A stretch of 5,100 bases of DNA from Bacteroidales bacterium. GTDB lineage: Bacteria > Bacteroidota > Bacteroidia > Bacteroidales > UBA932. The stretch is taken from NCBI GenBank assembly GCA_017509375.1, contig JAFWPT010000199.1, forward strand, positions 1 through 5,100, written 5' to 3'. Position numbers and translations under genes: made by a program. The notes under the pieces were generated by a model. It ran no database searches, was not told the origin of the DNA, and saw only the letters and a program-made list of their open reading frames with translations. The stretch's first letter is position 1; each line of letters starts with the position of its first letter. This document shows, piece by piece, positions 1 to 5,054 of this stretch.

Positions 1-735
1 AGTATGGCGTACGCTTACGTAGTAGGTCTCACCCTTCTTGAGTGGACTGCCGTCGGCATTGCTGAGGGTCACGTTCTTGTAGTTAGGGGTGCCGGTTGCA
101 ACGCTGGTAGGTCCGGTGGCGCCGACTGCATTGGAGAAGGTGACGTCTCCCGACATCGGACGGCTGCCGGAGAACTCGACGAACACCACGTCGTCGAAAT
201 CAACGCTGAAACTGAACAGCGAGCCGATGAGACGGAAACGTATGGAGGGGTTCTCAACTGTTGCCGATCCAACCGTCACGAGGGCCTCGGGGTCGAAACT
301 GCCCGCTACCGCATGCTGGTTCTGGGGAAAATCGATTTCGCAGGCGCCTGTGGCTACATCTACGCTCGTTGCGACAGAATACGGGTAGATTGCTATGAAC
401 TGTGTAGCTCCGGCGGTGACTGTACCTGTGAAGGATACCCTGTCTCCGTCGGAATTGGCTACAAATTCATGGGGAACAGAGGACTTGTCGTCATATACGG
501 CAATCTTGTCGCCAGCTTTCCAGCTGAGCTTCAGAAGGGTCTGCTCTTCTTGAGTATAGGTAGAGCCGACTGCTACTTTCGTGTCGGCGGGAAGGCCTTC
601 TTCGAGGTCGAAAGAGGCGTTGAACGTCATCTCCACTGTCTGGAGATCTTCCCCGGCGGGAACTTCGGTTTCTATGGTCTGGCAGGAAATGAATGCCGAA
701 ATAGCCATAGCTGTGAGCAAATAGATCTTTTTCAT
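1..735 (-). CDS. Fimbrillin-like lipoprotein, 3' part outside the window (second paralogue)
   Basis: This is a partial gene: 245 codons are visible from an ATG at 735, open to the window edge. The protein starts MKKIYLLTAMAISAFISC, a short Lys-headed hydrophobic signal peptide with a lipoprotein-type Cys at residue 18, so an envelope lipoprotein is expected. Residues of about 34-180 look like a fimbrillin/Mfa-like domain: the segment ADTKVAVG, a W-K-x-G-D-K-I motif, then F-T-G-T-V and A-I-Y-P-Y. It aligns along its whole visible length with residues 1-241 of the lipoprotein encoded at 903-2810, with well over half of the residues identical by eye, including FSGSRPMSG and KGETYYVSVRHT. It lies 17 nt after the small ORF at 753-887. 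An in-frame ATG at 759-757 would add eight residues and overlap that ORF's stop; the MKK start is preferred because it gives a normal signal peptide. The C-terminal domain cannot be seen, so its function is open. Confidence 0.88.
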   Translation of the reverse strand, partial: MKKIYLLTAMAISAFISCQTIETEVPAGEDLQTVEMTFNASFDLEEGLPADTKVAVGSTYTQEEQTLLKLSWKAGDKIAVYDDKSSVPHEFVANSDGDRVSFTGTVTAGATQFIAIYPYSVATSVDVATGACEIDFPQNQHAVAGSFDPEALVTVGSATVENPSIRFRLIGSLFSFSVDFDDVVFVEFSGSRPMSGDVTFSNAVGATGPTSVATGTPNYKNVTLSNADGSPLKKGETYYVSVRHT

Positions 736-750
736 AATAGCATTCAGTTT

Positions 751-759
751 AATTACCAT
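751..759 (-). promoter_or_regulatory. Alternative lipoprotein start overlapping the small ORF stop (copy A)
   Basis: An ATG at 759-757 is in frame with the lipoprotein and overlaps the small ORF's TGG-TAA end by 7 nt. It would add MVIKLNAI before MKKIYLL. Copy B has an in-frame ATG at the same eight-codon distance (2834-2832, adding MNGKMNVI). This could mean translational coupling, or a real start slightly upstream of the called one. It is kept as a low-confidence site because the added residues do not improve the signal peptide. Confidence 0.3.
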
Positions 760-887
760 CCAAACTCTTCTGAAACAGTCACGTCTTCAATGACGCTGCT
801 TGCAAATTCGCTGGCGCATACAAGGCTGTCAATATCTACAGACCCGAATGCGCAGCAAGGTGTTTTGTAAGGTTTTTTGATTGTCAT
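753..887 (-). CDS. Small ORF, 44 residues, preceding the second lipoprotein
   Basis: The ORF runs from ATG at 887 to TAA at 755-753. It begins MTIKKPYKTPCC, has SLVCASEF in the middle and ends TVSEEFGW. No signal peptide or membrane segment is visible. The N-terminal part is basic with Cys11 and Cys12, and the C-terminal part is acidic. It is homologous to the small ORF at 2824-2955: over the last 22 codons 11 residues are identical, five of them (A, S, F, S, E) through different synonymous codons, and other changes are conservative (I/V, Y/F). This pattern supports translation. It starts 15 nt after the stop of the 903-2810 gene and ends 17 nt before the next lipoprotein, so it is cotranscribed and possibly translationally coupled. 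Short ORFs with a K-x-Y-x-x-P start and a central L-C-x-S-type motif are, as I recall, common in Bacteroidales and lack an assigned function. I do not know its role. Confidence 0.72.
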   Translation of the reverse strand: MTIKKPYKTPCCAFGSVDIDSLVCASEFASSVIEDVTVSEEFGW

Positions 888-902
888 AATATTGTAGTTC
901 TT

Positions 903-2810
903 TTATTGTACTGAGGTAAGCTGGGGACCGAAGGCCTGGTAGCCACTTTCCAGAACGAATTCACCGGTGGCTGTGTTGAAGCTTGCTATCGGGTTCGAAT
1001 CCAATGTGGCAACTTCAGTCAGCGGTCCTCTGCATGCGGAATCGGAGATGGTCCATTTCTTTCCGGAGCCAAGGCTGCCGTAGCAGTAGTTGTCGGAGGA
1101 TACGCCTTCGAATACGGTCGCGGCATTTGCAACGGAAAGATTGGCCTTGAACATCTTGGCATTTGAACTGTAAGTGCCGTCCTCGGCCCAGAGGATATTA
1201 TTGCGGATGTAAATGGATTTCAGATAATGTGTCCTGAAAAGGCCGTTGCCGTTCGGCATATTGTAGAACAGGTTGTTGTCCATTACGACTTCCTGGTTGC
1301 AGGTGTTTTCCGCGATACCTGAAGCCGTGGTATAGAACACATAAGTCCCATTCTGTGCGGCTGAGGCGTACAGGACATTGTTGGTGAAGGTGAAGTCCTT
1401 GTAACCGGCCAGGGTAGTGGCTCCGGAACCGATGGAGAACAACTGCACGTTAGCGGTAGTGGCGATACGGTTGCCGTTCATCTTGATGCTGTTGATGCCG
1501 TTTGTCAAGTAAGAACTGTTGGGTGCGTAGAACGGTCTTGCGACGTTCTTGATATTGCATTGCTGGACGGTAAGGGACGAGAAGTCGCCGTCGCTGTCTT
1601 TTTTCGCCAGGAACTGGCCGCTGGTCATCGCGGACATATCTATGATGAGGTTGTCCAGCACGAGAGAGCCGGATTTCACCAGGATCAACTTGCCGTTTGT
1701 TCCTTTGTAAGTCGCCGGATGGTCGGGATCGTTGCTTGTAATCACCACGTCCGAGGTTATGGCGGCCTCCGATGTGTTGGTAACGGTAGCGGAAGCGTCC
1801 AGGAAGATAAGTCCGCTCATTCCTGTCGTAAAGTTACCTCCATCATTAAGCAATATGGCATCACCGTCCGTTGCTTTATTGTAGGTCTTTCCGGCGATTG
1901 TAACGTCGAATCCGGCGGTGTAGACGGCATGTCTGTCGTAGGCTAAACTGACATTGGAGCTGTTGAACTGCCCCAACGGGTAGATGGTTTTCCTTGCAAT
2001 CTGCAGGTTTTTGCTTCCTGTTCTGCTCGCCACTTTGGCATCTGCGGTGATAAGCTTCGCCGTGAATCCTTCATGGGCGTTGCTGCCGGTATGGCGCACG
2101 CTCACATAGTAGGTTTCACCCTTAGTCAGGGGGCTTCCGTCAGCATTCTTTATGCTTACGTCCTTGTGGTTTGGAGTGCCTGTACTCACACTTGAGGGAC
2201 CGGATGCAGTAGAGTTAAAACTGAGCTGTCCCGACATCGGCCGGCTTCCGGAGAACTCCACATAAACGACATCGTCGAAATCCACCTTGAAGCTCAGCAG
2301 GGCGCCGAGGAGGCGGAAACGAAGGTTGACATCTGTGGCTTCAGCATATGCGGTCGCCACGAGAGCCTCGGGGTCGAAGCTCCCGGCGACGGCTGTCTGC
2401 TCCCTGGGGAAAGACGCAACGCAAGCACCGGTTTCTGCATTTGCACTTTCAGCAGCAGAATAGGGATAGATTGCGACGAATTTGGTAGCGCCGTCGGTAA
2501 CTGTGCCGGTGAAGGACGTCTTGGCCCCGTCGGCATTTGCGGTAAACTCGTTGGGGGTGGAGGAGAGGTTGTCATAGATGGCAATCTTGTCTCCCTTCTT
2601 CCAGGTGAATTTCAACTGATTGTTGCCTGTATCTACCTCGCCTACCGCTACTTTGGTATCGGCGGTGAGTTCTTCGTTCATGTCTATGGAAGCGCTGAAA
2701 GTCATCTGGACTTTGCCGGGCTCTCCTTCTGTCGGAATTTCTGTGTCTATGGTCTGGCAAGAAATGAATGCCGAAACAGCCATAGCTGCGAGCAAATAAA
2801 ACTTTTTCAT
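903..2810 (-). CDS. Lipoprotein: fimbrillin-like N-terminus plus beta-helix-like (DUF4957/DUF5123-like) C-terminus
   Basis: The protein has 635 residues from ATG at 2810. The signal peptide is MKKFYLLAAMAVSAFISC with the lipid-modified Cys probably at residue 18. Residues of about 34-180 form a fimbrillin/Mfa-like domain (ADTKVAVG, FTWKKGDKIAIYD, FTGTV, AIYPYS). Residues 181-290 continue the beta-rich region shared with the neighbouring paralogue. From about residue 298 the protein changes character: it is rich in Asn, Ser and short beta stretches (for example LVLDNLIIDMS, FTFTNNVLY, MDNNLFYN, IYIRNNILW), recurring at intervals as in right-handed beta-helix proteins, and it ends in a P-x-x-x-F-x-x-x-x-G-E-F-x-L tail typical of DUF5123-like proteins. 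Such proteins occur in Bacteroidota polysaccharide loci near lyases; binding or processing of a uronate glycan at the surface is inferred. I cannot identify catalytic residues. The reading frame extends upstream to 2984, but that would overlap the reductase gene and the small ORF and would bury the signal peptide, so 2810 is preferred. ATGs at 2834 and 2822 are alternatives. Confidence 0.9.
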   Translation of the reverse strand: MKKFYLLAAMAVSAFISCQTIDTEIPTEGEPGKVQMTFSASIDMNEELTADTKVAVGEVDTGNNQLKFTWKKGDKIAIYDNLSSTPNEFTANADGAKTSFTGTVTDGATKFVAIYPYSAAESANAETGACVASFPREQTAVAGSFDPEALVATAYAEATDVNLRFRLLGALLSFKVDFDDVVYVEFSGSRPMSGQLSFNSTASGPSSVSTGTPNHKDVSIKNADGSPLTKGETYYVSVRHTGSNAHEGFTAKLITADAKVASRTGSKNLQIARKTIYPLGQFNSSNVSLAYDRHAVYTAGFDVTIAGKTYNKATDGDAILLNDGGNFTTGMSGLIFLDASATVTNTSEAAITSDVVITSNDPDHPATYKGTNGKLILVKSGSLVLDNLIIDMSAMTSGQFLAKKDSDGDFSSLTVQQCNIKNVARPFYAPNSSYLTNGINSIKMNGNRIATTANVQLFSIGSGATTLAGYKDFTFTNNVLYASAAQNGTYVFYTTASGIAENTCNQEVVMDNNLFYNMPNGNGLFRTHYLKSIYIRNNILWAEDGTYSSNAKMFKANLSVANAATVFEGVSSDNYCYGSLGSGKKWTISDSACRGPLTEVATLDSNPIASFNTATGEFVLESGYQAFGPQLTSVQ

Positions 2811-2819
2811 AATTACATT

Positions 2820-2834
2820 CATTTTACCATTCAT
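2820..2834 (-). promoter_or_regulatory. Alternative lipoprotein starts overlapping the small ORF stop (copy B)
   Basis: In-frame ATGs lie at 2834-2832, overlapping the small ORF by 11 nt, and at 2822-2820, one base after its TAA. Either would lengthen the lipoprotein by eight or four residues before MKKFYLL. The close stop-start packing is compatible with reinitiation by ribosomes that finish the small ORF. No strong Shine-Dalgarno sequence is seen before any of the candidate starts, as is usual in Bacteroidota. Confidence 0.3.
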
Positions 2835-2955
2835 ATTCTTCAGCAATAGTTGCAGTTTCGAATTCACTGTCTTCGAATTGACTTGCGCATACAATGCGGC
2901 GGCAGGTGAGTGTGTACACCCGGCACACCGGCGGGAAATAATTATTGTATTCCAT
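2824..2955 (-). CDS. Small ORF, 43 residues, preceding the first lipoprotein
   Basis: The ORF runs from ATG at 2955 to TAA at 2826-2824. It begins MEYNNYFPPVCRVYT, has RRIVCASQF in the middle and ends TIAEEYEW. Cys residues are at 11, 18 and 23. It is the counterpart of the ORF at 753-887: same length within one residue, same place relative to a paralogous lipoprotein, same VCAS motif, and the same acidic tail ending in EE, an aromatic residue, any residue, Trp and stop. It starts 12 nt after the stop of the SDR gene, in the same frame, and ends 13 nt before the lipoprotein ATG. It is easily missed because an N-terminally over-extended call of the lipoprotein covers it in another frame. The N-terminal half is poorly conserved between the two copies, while the tail is kept. 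It could be a small functional protein, or a translated leader that couples ribosomes to the lipoprotein start. No function is recognised. Confidence 0.7.
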   Translation of the reverse strand: MEYNNYFPPVCRVYTLTCRRIVCASQFEDSEFETATIAEEYEW

Positions 2956-2967
2956 ATCTTTAACAGC

Positions 2968-3726
2968 TTAACTAAAGAGCACACCGCCGTTTATGTCGAT
3001 GCCGGTGCCGGTGATGTAGGATGATTCGTCGCAGGCGAGGAAGCATACGAGGTCGGCGACTTCGGATGCTTCTCCCTCACGGCGCAGGGGAGCGCTGTTG
3101 TGGAGGTTCTCGCGGGCTGCGGGTTTGGTGAATTTGTCATGGAACGAAGTGTTGATCATTCCTGGAGTGACCGCATTGACCCTGATTCCTGCAGGGCCGA
3201 GTTCCTTAGCCATGGCCCTGGTGTAGCAGAGCACTGCGGCTTTGGAGGTTGCGTACAGGGAGGCGCCGGGGCCACCGCCGTCACGTGCGGCCTGGGAAGA
3301 GAAGTTAACGATAGCACCGCCTTCGGTCATTGCGGGAACGACCTCGCGGGTGCAGAGCCATACGCTCTTGAAATTGACGTCCATAAGCAGATTGTACCAG
3401 TCTTCGTCCTGCTCGGTGACGGTCTTGCGGCCCATGATGCCGCCGACGACGTTTACAAGCACGTGGACGACGGGTCCGAAAGCCTCTTTCGTTTTCTCGA
3501 AGAGGTTCTTTACGTCTGCGGCCTTGGTCATGTCACCCTTTACGATAATGGCCTCTCCGCCTTCGGCTTTGATGAGACGCAGAGTCTCCAAGGCGTCCTC
3601 TTCGCTTCCGCGGTAGTTGACACACACCTTTGCGCCTTCGCGGGCGAGTTTAATTGATACTGCGCGACCGAGGTCGCGGGAACCGCCTGTCACGACGGCT
3701 ACTTTTCCTTCAAGTTTTTTGTTCAT
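2968..3726 (-). CDS. SDR-family NAD(P)H reductase, probably keto-uronate (DEH-type) reductase
   Basis: The product has 252 residues, the usual length of a classical short-chain dehydrogenase/reductase. The nucleotide-binding motif is T13-G-G-S-R-D-L-G20, in which the usual middle glycine is Asp18. Arg17 and Arg39, after the second beta strand, suggest preference for NADPH. The NNAG-type motif is N92-V-V-G95. The catalytic set is N118, S144 (in NFSS), Y158 and K162 (YATSK), followed by VTPGM at 187-190 and the C-terminal tetramer tail DINGG. The fold is certain; the substrate is inferred from the neighbours. Next to a hexuronate transporter and a KdgF-like cupin, the expected reaction is reduction of 4-deoxy-5-keto-hexuronate (DEH) to 2-keto-3-deoxygluconate in the cytoplasm. 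It lacks the TGCxTGLGQ signature expected of KduD, which favours an alginate-type reductase over the pectin route. It starts 8 nt after the transporter stop. Generic annotation as a 3-oxoacyl-ACP reductase (FabG) would probably be misleading here. Confidence 0.88.
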   Translation of the reverse strand: MNKKLEGKVAVVTGGSRDLGRAVSIKLAREGAKVCVNYRGSEEDALETLRLIKAEGGEAIIVKGDMTKAADVKNLFEKTKEAFGPVVHVLVNVVGGIMGRKTVTEQDEDWYNLLMDVNFKSVWLCTREVVPAMTEGGAIVNFSSQAARDGGGPGASLYATSKAAVLCYTRAMAKELGPAGIRVNAVTPGMINTSFHDKFTKPAARENLHNSAPLRREGEASEVADLVCFLACDESSYITGTGIDINGGVLFS

Positions 3727-3734
3727 ACTGTTAT

Positions 3735-5054
3735 TTATTTTGTGTTGTTTTCAATGAGTGCCTCGTGCTCGATCTTGCCGCCGAACAGGAAGACGCAGAT
3801 TAGACTGAGCGGTACCAGGGATGCGCCCATGATGAAGAACGGTGTCCAGTTGTCGCCTGCGGTAAGCATGGGAATAAAGAGCATGCTGAGGATGGTGCCG
3901 AGGGTAGCGGCAGCTCCACCGAGTCCGGCGAGGGAACCGATGCTCTTGCCGGTGTACATGTCTCCGGGGAGCGTCTGGATGTTGTTGATGGTGAACTGGT
4001 ATCCGAAGAGGATGACGGCCATTACGGTCACGGCCACCATGGGATCCTGCACGAAAGCCACGAAGATAAGTGAAGGCAGCAGGATAGCGGCGCCGATGAC
4101 GATGGACGTCTTGCGGGCGAATCCGACGCTGCGGCCCTTGCGGATGAAGAAGCTGGAAGCCCAGCCGCCGGCGAGCGAACCGAGTGCCGCTCCGACATAA
4201 GGGATCCACATGTGTGCCGCGAGCTGCTTGATGTCCATGCCGTACTTCTGGCCGAGGTAGATGGGCAGCCAGGTGACGAACATCCACCAGATGGGGTCGA
4301 GGAAGAAACGTCCGAGGATAACGGCGTAACTCTTGCGCCTGGAGAGCAGCTGGCCCCAGCTGAGGCCCTTGTCGTTCGCGACCTTGCACTCGGGCTGGCC
4401 GCTGAGTATATAATCCTTTTCCTTGTCGGTGATCCAAGGGTGGTCCTTTGGCCCTTTCTTGTTCACGATGAGCCAGGGGATGATCCACAGGGGCGCCAGG
4501 ATACCGATTGCCACGAAGGTCAGTTTCCAGCCGAAGGCGGAATATATGAGCGCAATGAGAATGGGCGCGAGGATGGCACCTATGGACGCACCGGCGTTGA
4601 AGAAGCCCTGCGCCATTGCCCTTTCCTTCTGCGGGAACCATTCGGCGTTGCTCTTGACGGCGCCGGGCCAGGGGCCTGCGACTCCGAGTCCGAGACCGGC
4701 ACGGAAGGCACCGATGGACTTGAAACCTCCGGCGATGGAGGTAAGCATATCGGAAATACCCCACAGCAGTGCGGAGAAAGTGAAGCCGCGGCGCGTGCCG
4801 AACTTGTCGTACAGCTTGCCGGAGAACATCTGCGACAGGCCGTAGGCAATCATGAACACCATGTTGATATCGCGGAACATCTTCTTGCTAAGGTCGTTGA
4901 ATTCGGCCTCAGACATCCCTTCGGTGTTGATGAGGCCCAGGTCTTCCACAATCTTGGCCCACATTATTCCGAGGGTGTTCCTGTCCAGATAGTTGATGAT
5001 GGTCACCAGGACGATGAGTCCCAGCACCCACCAGCGCATTCCTTTTACTTTCAT
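3735..5054 (-). CDS. MFS hexuronate transporter, ACS/ExuT-like
   Basis: The protein has 439 residues and about 12 hydrophobic membrane segments in two halves, separated by a hydrophilic loop at roughly 197-240. Family marks are N21-Y-L-D-R-N-T-L28 at the end of the first segment, the MFS loop motif G79-K-L-Y-D-K-F-G-T-R-R89, the fourth-segment motif FRAGLGLGVAGPWP at 117-130, FLDPIWWMFVTWLPIYL at 251-267, and NNIQTLPGDMYTG then GSLAGLGG at 357-380. These fit the anion:cation symporter group of the major facilitator superfamily, which includes ExuT for galacturonate and glucuronate. The role would be proton-coupled import of uronate monomers, probably unsaturated ones made by lyases in the periplasm, across the inner membrane. 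It starts only 3 nt after the upstream KdgF-like stop and ends 8 nt before the reductase, so cotranscription and coupling are likely. Met6 is an alternative start but leaves a shorter N-terminus. The exact sugar cannot be read from sequence alone. Confidence 0.93.
   Translation of the reverse strand: MKVKGMRWWVLGLIVLVTIINYLDRNTLGIMWAKIVEDLGLINTEGMSEAEFNDLSKKMFRDINMVFMIAYGLSQMFSGKLYDKFGTRRGFTFSALLWGISDMLTSIAGGFKSIGAFRAGLGLGVAGPWPGAVKSNAEWFPQKERAMAQGFFNAGASIGAILAPILIALIYSAFGWKLTFVAIGILAPLWIIPWLIVNKKGPKDHPWITDKEKDYILSGQPECKVANDKGLSWGQLLSRRKSYAVILGRFFLDPIWWMFVTWLPIYLGQKYGMDIKQLAAHMWIPYVGAALGSLAGGWASSFFIRKGRSVGFARKTSIVIGAAILLPSLIFVAFVQDPMVAVTVMAVILFGYQFTINNIQTLPGDMYTGKSIGSLAGLGGAAATLGTILSMLFIPMLTAGDNWTPFFIMGASLVPLSLICVFLFGGKIEHEALIENNTK

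Follow-up and report, generated by a model that had tools for sequence, protein, structure and literature searches.

Small ORFs and lipoprotein genes of the window

The 5,100-nt stretch analysed here (the window; positions 1 to 5,100 of contig JAFWPT010000199.1, assembly GCA_017509375.1, from a Bacteroidales bacterium) carries, in the order of transcription, genes for an MFS transporter, an SDR dehydrogenase, small ORF 2, lipoprotein 2, small ORF 1 and lipoprotein 1 (Table 1). The two small open reading frames (ORFs), whose positions in the first-pass annotation were verified on the minus strand, are the subject of this report; they are predicted to encode precursors of ribosomally synthesized and post-translationally modified peptides (RiPPs), and the window holds two precursor-plus-lipoprotein units.

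Table 1. Features of the window, in window numbering
Feature	Position	Strand	Remarks
Small ORF 1	753..887	minus	44 aa, predicted RiPP precursor; family alignments and profile
Small ORF 1, predicted leader (residues 1-23)	819..887	minus	YxxP (Y7-P10) at 858-869; leader/core border inferred
Small ORF 1, predicted core (residues 24-44)	756..818	minus	C-A-S...EEFGW; Ser/Cys spacing kept in family
Small ORF 1, Ser26 (Pro+16), predicted phosphorylation site	810-812	minus	By analogy with LPP core Ser3
Small ORF 2	2824..2955	minus	43 aa, predicted RiPP precursor; family alignments and profile
Small ORF 2, predicted leader (residues 1-22)	2890..2955	minus	YxxP (Y6-P9) at 2929-2940
Small ORF 2, predicted core (residues 23-43)	2827..2889	minus	C-A-S...EEYEW; as small ORF 1
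Small ORF 2, Ser25, predicted phosphorylation site	2881-2883	minus	As small ORF 1
Lipoprotein 1, paired with small ORF 1	1..735	minus	Continues past window end; N-terminal domain fimbrillin-like, lipobox ...AFISC
Lipoprotein 2, paired with small ORF 2	903..2810	minus	635 aa; N-terminal part fimbrillin-like, C-terminal part a beta-helix (DUF4957)
SDR-family dehydrogenase	2968..3726	minus	Context, outside the system; PF13561, E 1e-58
MFS transporter	3735..5054	minus	Context; PF07690, E 3e-48; TIGR00893 (galactonate transporter), E 8e-64, below cut-off

The two small ORFs are homologous, as had been claimed, sharing 35% identity over their length. In the last 22 residues, a recount by eye gave the reported 11 identities, five of which (A, S, F, S and E) are encoded by different synonymous codons. 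The Cys described as residue 11 of both proteins is indeed homologous, lying at Pro+2 in each, but it is residue 12 in small ORF 1 and residue 11 in small ORF 2. The strongest common features had escaped the first-pass annotation: a YxxP motif with fixed distances from its Pro to a Cys (Pro+14) and to a Ser (Pro+16). Both ORFs also have an acidic tail with a terminal Trp. The suggestion that these are overlooked proteins is borne out. Neither belongs to a Pfam or NCBIfam family; scans of both collections yielded none for small ORF 1 and just a noise-level Pfam doublecortin match (E 0.046) for small ORF 2.

The lipoproteins are 65% identical across their common N-terminal part, with MKK starts 17 nt (ORF 1) and 13 nt (ORF 2) downstream of the ends of the small ORFs, as counted by eye. 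The DNA flanking the two small ORFs is likewise similar, which is expected if the whole small-ORF/lipoprotein unit was duplicated. An alternative ATG of lipoprotein 2 (window 2811-2834) overlaps the last small-ORF codons, and the same overlap, at offset -11, was seen in loci L001, L002, L006, L007, L033 and L040. In the database, lipoprotein 2 has an identical counterpart of 643 residues, a length that fits this alternative start; because of the overlap, the two genes may be translationally coupled.

Lipoprotein 1 gave a weak match to Mfa_like_1 (E 0.06, below cut-off) and lipoprotein 2 one to PF16318 (E 2.7e-6, likewise below cut-off). As modelled by AlphaFold (mean pLDDT 85), lipoprotein 2 matched Bacteroides structures described as 'putative cell adhesion' (4k4k, E 1.7e-7; Mfa3 5nf4, E 6e-4) and, more weakly, polysaccharide lyase family 6 (PL6) enzymes (E 4e-3 to 1e-2). 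From these model matches and Pfam, we read lipoprotein 2 as probably divided into fimbrillin-like and beta-helix parts. The partner proteins resemble the Mfa/Fim-type lipoproteins of Bacteroidales in having a lipobox and a fimbrillin-like N-terminal part, whereas lipoprotein 2 differs by its additional PL6/pectate-lyase-like beta-helix. No match to lipoprotein 2 was found in a search of plasmids.

A family of YxxP small ORFs in Bacteroidales

Since a protein search with small ORF 1 returned itself alone, homologues were sought via the lipoprotein. Lipoprotein 2 was aligned with 14 relatives, and a search of one genome per species with this alignment gave 16 loci (loci and genomes are denoted below by L and G numbers), all Bacteroidia/Bacteroidales metagenome-assembled genomes by title; several come from rumen or omasum samples and one is labelled Rikenellaceae. 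The N-terminal part of the lipoprotein is present in 15 of these loci, and 14 of the 15 have a small ORF of this type immediately upstream; in the exception, L015, such an ORF precedes a different lipoprotein on the contig. The Tyr, the Pro and one Glu are invariant in the alignment of the 16 small ORFs, and the Cys and Trp nearly so. The resulting profile gave 3-23 matches in each of 10 genomes (E up to 1, and therefore partly chance); those inspected precede lipoproteins, some of quite different sequence. In the alignments used, row L014 (a 3' fragment) was dropped, A5 (15 sequences) and A11 (46 sequences) are our own selections, and A7 omits the near-duplicate L007 and also L046, a short contig on which no lipoprotein was seen.

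When the 3,289 ORFs of 25-140 aa from all loci gathered by then were scanned without demanding YxxP, the family profile matched 113 distinct ORFs, including both of the window. YxxP is present in 112 of them, the remaining one looking like a false match. Ser occurs at Pro+16 in 88% of the family, compared with 0-17% at the other offsets from 1 to 29, a figure to which the profile itself contributes by favouring such sequences, and Cys occurs at Pro+14 in 74%. Of 136 peptides, 76% have a hydrophobic residue at Pro+2 if Cys and Ala are included, in agreement with the published motif [Y/W]xxPx[L/V/I/F/A]. The proposal that selection acts on the peptide was upheld: the non-synonymous rate (dN) was below the synonymous rate (dS) in 51 of the 52 pairs compared, which are not independent and of which 11 have saturated dS. 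For the window pair, dN was 0.60 and dS 1.91, and for L002/L001 the values were 0.13 and 1.10; dN/dS was close to 1 in two pairs (L002 vs L006 and L002 vs L007), and the remaining pair, L006/L007, had zero synonymous changes. Pfam and NCBIfam scans of the small ORFs gave single-member matches only (E 0.04-0.1), taken as noise, and the best PDB match of the small-ORF profile had an E of 1.5. When proteins were searched with a profile built from 46 such ORFs, 79 were retrieved, none with a Pfam domain; the few that carry a name are called 'hypothetical protein'.

The pairing of each small ORF with a paralogous fimbrillin-like lipoprotein, noted at the outset for the window, extends to the family. 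With a lipoprotein ORF required to start -20 to +40 nt from the small-ORF end, and lipoproteins recognized by our own regular expression, applied equally to the control ORFs, 87 of the 113 family ORFs lie directly before a lipoprotein gene, compared with 56 of the 3,131 other ORFs of the same loci. Of the other 26, 4 precede a protein with a hydrophobic N-terminus (3 of these lipoprotein-like) and 22 have no such ORF. For L001-L016 the pairing is partly built in, since these loci were found through the lipoprotein; the small-ORF profiles, too, were trained on members that adjoin a lipoprotein gene. The loci from L067 upward, which were fetched via the small-ORF profile, contain 50 distinct small ORFs. 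Of these, 28 precede a lipoprotein by the automatic test and 3 further ones do so by eye, while for 4 outside genome G121 the next 40 nt hold no ORF (one of these, L110, which is the same as L191, has a lipoprotein about 390 nt downstream); the remaining 15 are from G121 and are considered below.

An alignment of 63 of the 87 distinct partner lipoproteins, selected to have a lipobox and including lipoprotein 1 of the window, revealed a common fimbrillin-like N-terminal pattern in which the lipobox Cys is invariant and W70, P116 and G194 are each kept in 90% or more; 9 of the 63 match Mfa_like_1 in Pfam at E 0.01. Similarity between partner lipoproteins correlated with that between the small-ORF tails (Spearman 0.35, p 0.003) and between whole peptides (0.16, p 0.007; 299 permutations), although these correlations may reflect joint descent of the pair alone.

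The number of pairs in a genome can be large. In G002 (about 2.5 Mb), 75 matches to the partner-lipoprotein profile were found; nine genomes without small-ORF matches gave none in six cases and 1-3 in three, and G179, with one small-ORF match, gave 6. The DNA upstream of 60 of the 75 matches had a YxxP small ORF in place in 31 and none in 29, and the same pattern occurred 3 times on the opposite strand of those 60 stretches. With six further pairs (three in L048 and one each in L052, L053 and L058), G002 contains at least 37 pairs among 66 lipoprotein matches examined, the other 9 being weak or partial.

G121 is arranged differently. Its small ORFs (L067-L095 of G121; L125-L137) are of the type MKKxYxxP...AxS...W-x-D, with tails W-x-D-D/E, and in 10 of 11 stretches the small ORF lies directly behind a long ORF. 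Where the start of the long ORF is visible, it is signal-peptide-like in L126 and L127 and not in L128. G121 also has one complete set of HprK-like, peptidase, PqqD and ABC genes (L173), of the kind described in the next section. Its small ORFs represent the same type of precursor next to a different sort of gene.

Predicted processing genes and their linkage to the small ORFs

YxxP is a RiPP leader motif bound by PqqD-like domains, the RiPP recognition elements (RREs; PMC12710340, PMC10368454 and PMC13381572). The last of these papers (Nat Commun 2026) describes the biochemistry and a crystal structure for the linear polyphosphorylated peptides (LPPs; lppA/K/B/S/D/N) of Bacillota, whose core genes encode a signal-peptidase-like protease, a discrete RRE, an HprK-like kinase, an NTP transferase and an MsbA-like transporter. 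The LPP precursors have the motif YxxPxVLxHQxIxFETxxS; RRE binding requires Tyr-16 and Pro-13, the leader is cleaved off after T-1 and Ser3 is phosphorylated. S29, H68 and D93 are the residues given for the peptidase, and N33 and D70 of the RRE touch the motif. The paper regards LPPs as confined to Bacillota and gives 1-3 precursors for each cluster and no known role (PMC13381572). Searches of the open PMC library, judged by listings and the openings of abstracts, showed no paper on the present small ORFs or on any system in Bacteroidota that resembles LPPs.

The same kinds of genes were found in relatives of the window's genome. PqqD (PF05402) is encoded in 19 of 19 genomes with small ORFs, as a single copy in 18, versus 11 of 20 genomes without them, the two groups being drawn from different samples; two of the PqqD proteins, when scanned, matched Pfam with E 5e-16 and 2.7e-16. 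Part profiles showed that PqqD has the peptidase as a neighbour in 15 of 15 stretches (L168-L182), with an HprK-like gene beside PqqD in 13 (not L180 and L182) and an ABC gene in 12 (not L171, L176 and L179); all four occur together in 10 (L168-L170, L172-L175, L177, L178 and L181). The G121 peptidase matched TIGR02228 (archaeal signal peptidase I; E 6.6e-9, below cut-off) and Peptidase_S24 (E 2e-4), and that of G002 gave no match by hmmscan. Residues S35, H73 and D88 are present in all 12 aligned peptidases, whose best solved relative by profile is SEC11A (E 0.03). The kinase-like protein of G121 matched TIGR04352 (HprK_rel_A; E 1.6e-9, below cut-off) and that of G002 had no NCBIfam match; the model of the latter (pLDDT 91) had fold matches of modest TM-score to PEPCK (from E 9e-8) and to HprK/P (from E 1.3e-5), and SGTGKST (Walker A, P-loop) and NDDNP are found in 10 of 10 aligned sequences. 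The ABC protein of L168 matched the MsbA model with E 3e-67, below the equivalog cut-off.

Asn35 is present in 10 of 10 and Asp73 in 9 of 10 Bacteroidales RREs. These residues align with PbaB1 G42 and Q79 and hence with LppB N33 and D70, a mapping that relies on an inferred numbering offset of 18 for the 9x90 chain. Since N33/D70-type residues are common in many RREs, as noted in PMC13381572, this match is consistent with LppB-like binding and is not diagnostic of it. L171 (G008; 6674-8246) has a second PqqD-like match, flanked by the HprK-like gene on one side and by a radical SAM gene (PF04055, E 1.5e-16) on the other, followed by a similar ORF; this may be another RRE-dependent peptide system beside the LPP-like genes.

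The peptidase and the small ORFs tend to occur in the same genomes. In the family-level sample of 149 genomes, whose sameness across both searches rests on matching handles, the peptidase profile (E <= 1e-8) matched 42 of 45 small-ORF genomes and 18 of 104 others (Fisher p 3e-19, a statistic that ignores kinship); at E 1e-20 the numbers were 41 of 45 and 10 of 104. In the order-level sample, also of 149 genomes, small ORFs were found in 5, and the peptidase in all 5 of these versus 10 of the 144 others. Only 2 of the 247 genomes of the phylum-level sample had the peptidase (E <= 1e-12, among up to 15 candidates scored per genome), so the LPP-like system seems confined to part of the phylum.

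Although no convincing precursor was found inside stretches L142-L182, a small ORF lies within or adjoining the machinery operon in six genomes (L188-L193). In L188 the order on one strand is PqqD, NTP transferase, ABC, HprK-like, peptidase, small ORF, lipoprotein. Two small-ORF/lipoprotein pairs in L189 are followed by HprK-like, peptidase, PqqD and ABC genes, and L190 has ABC, small ORF, lipoprotein, HprK-like and peptidase genes, PqqD not being found in the stretch. In L191 the small ORF and, after the gap of about 390 nt, the lipoprotein precede HprK-like, peptidase, PqqD, NTP transferase and ABC genes, while L192 and L193, which are closely alike, have HprK-like, peptidase, PqqD, ABC, small ORF and lipoprotein. 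A pair lies about 6 kb from the machinery in L194, and L195-L197 contain pairs with no machinery in the stretch. These ten stretches (L188-L197) were chosen for having a small ORF and the peptidase, or several small ORFs, on one contig.

Proposed processing and alternative explanations

On this evidence, the two small ORFs very probably encode LPP-like RiPP precursors made up of leader and core, on which a single machinery would act in trans. Their predicted nature as precursors and their dependence on the RRE, peptidase, kinase and exporter are well supported at the level of sequence by motif, spacing, co-occurrence and linkage, whereas each biochemical step (binding, cleavage, phosphorylation and export) is taken by analogy from the Bacillota system. 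Both systems have a discrete RRE, an archaeal-type signal-peptidase-like protease with S/H/D residues, an HprK-like kinase, an MsbA-like exporter and, in some operons here, an NTP transferase, together with short YxxP-leader precursors having a Ser 15-16 residues past the Pro and a variable C-terminal core. The recurrence of the LPP gene types would explain why the Tyr, the Pro and the Ser 16 residues on are retained. The two systems differ in that the present precursors belong to Bacteroidales and not Bacillota, are mostly dispersed, numbering up to dozens in a genome where LPP clusters have 1-3, mostly lie beside a fimbrillin-like lipoprotein gene and have Cys (or Ala) two residues before the Ser; the RRE is also distant in sequence.

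In the proposed scheme, precursor and lipoprotein would be co-expressed from their adjacent genes, an arrangement that is observed and that suggests coupling. As judged from motif and homology, a PqqD-type RRE encoded elsewhere would bind the leader via Y-x-x-P-x-hydrophobic, after which the HprK-like kinase would phosphorylate the Ser at Pro+16, core residue 3, and the archaeal-type signal-peptidase-like protease would cut off the leader beside the Cys at Pro+14, the exact bond being uncertain. Where present, the NTP transferase might modify the phosphate further. The acidic peptide of about 20 residues would then be exported by the MsbA-like ABC protein and might act in the envelope with or near its neighbouring lipoprotein, many dispersed precursors being served by a single machinery.

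The first-pass annotation is partly supported in its interpretation. The homologue search, neighbourhood test and dN/dS comparison it called for all came out in its favour, and a processed peptide, one of the roles it considered, is the best supported. The anatomy it gave such a peptide, a Cys-rich head and an acidic tail, has to be revised, as the Tyr/Pro head would be the leader and the Cys-x-Ser-acidic-Trp tail the predicted product. Its other candidates, a translated leader or a cytoplasmic partner, account neither for YxxP and the Pro-to-Ser spacing nor for the co-occurrence and linkage with RRE, peptidase, HprK-like and ABC genes. It is very improbable that the small ORF is a translated leader controlling the downstream lipoprotein, with the peptide idle after synthesis. 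The position of 87 of the 113 ORFs directly before a lipoprotein gene agrees with this idea, and the overlapping alternative lipoprotein starts make coupling plausible and could help to retain the last codons; however, conservation is strongest at the amino-acid level and away from the stop codon (Tyr, Pro, Cys, Ser and their fixed spacing), some family members have no lipoprotein after them, and the linked genes are left unexplained. An unprocessed cytoplasmic partner or chaperone of the nascent lipoprotein, which we also consider very improbable, would fit the tight pairing, the common N-terminal pattern of the 63 aligned partners and the correlated similarities, but joint descent may underlie these correlations, and YxxP with Cys-x-Ser, the lipoprotein-less members of G121 and the machinery would remain unaccounted for.

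Lasso-peptide precursors share the identical YxxP leader motif, and, among proteins of solved structure, lasso B1 proteins are closest to the RRE in sequence. Paeninodin-type phosphorylated lasso peptides further resemble the present system in their [Y/W]xxP leader, discrete B1/RRE, HprK-like kinase and NTP transferase (PMC13381572). The lasso leader peptidase B2 (PF13471, Transglut_core3), however, exceeded its cut-off in 0 of 19 small-ORF genomes and in 2 of 20 others; four of the 19 (G190, G208, G253 and G264) gave short sub-threshold matches (E 4e-4 to 8e-4) within long frames, and the operon contains the signal-peptidase-like protease instead. Lasso peptides are therefore very unlikely, a rejection based on B2 and on the protease of the operon, the Asn-synthetase-like macrolactam synthetase not having been searched for. 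Still less credible, and extremely unlikely, is that the ORFs are spurious and owe their similarity to conservation of an untranslated region when the gene pair was duplicated. The surrounding DNA is also alike, and dN approaches dS for L002 vs L006 and L007, but across the family the frame stays open and four residues are constant in an otherwise changing sequence, and dN stays below dS in all but one of the pairs. Export of the small ORFs themselves by Sec or the lipoprotein route was also considered and rejected, as no hydrophobic stretch was seen by eye.

Several observations weigh against an LPP-like system as described here. The Ser lies at Pro+16 and not at Pro+15 as in LPPs, the predicted cut is at hydrophobic-hydrophobic|Cys and not at F-E-T|A, and the RRE profile has a closer match in lasso TfuB1 (E 9e-6) than in LppB (9x8z, E 0.75). 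The machinery is known from relatives and not from the window's own genome, and the NCBIfam matches of its parts are all under their cut-offs. Five of the 15 PqqD stretches lack a kinase-like or ABC gene beside PqqD, and the NTP transferase (PF14907), which was not searched for genome-wide, was found in only four operons (L180, L182, L188 and L191). G189, G195 and G207 have small ORFs but no peptidase match, the 18 other genomes with the peptidase have no small-ORF match, and kinship and the differing PqqD samples may inflate the co-occurrence. None of the 15 small ORFs of G121 among those fetched by profile is followed by a lipoprotein.

If the small ORFs are LPP-like precursors, a RiPP type described as restricted to Bacillota extends to a second phylum in an unusual form, with machinery acting in trans and scattered precursors, which RiPP mining confined to the surroundings of biosynthetic genes would overlook. 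A nameless, family-less class of Bacteroidales small proteins would gain a testable function, and the neighbouring lipoprotein gene would offer a first handle on the purpose of such phospho-peptides. More tentatively, and doubtful at present, the matured phospho-peptide might be a dedicated partner of the adjacent surface lipoprotein, as a bound strand, ligand or covalent decoration of its fimbrillin-like domain. One central RiPP machinery would then equip dozens of interchangeable peptide-adhesin pairs per cell, giving a modular cell surface in which RiPPs serve as structural parts or ligands and not as antibiotics.

As to the surroundings of the two units, the SDR dehydrogenase and galactonate-type MFS transporter genes (2968-5054) adjoin the gene for the lipoprotein bearing the PL6/pectate-lyase-like beta-helix, a context that suggests a sugar-acid or polysaccharide utilisation setting.

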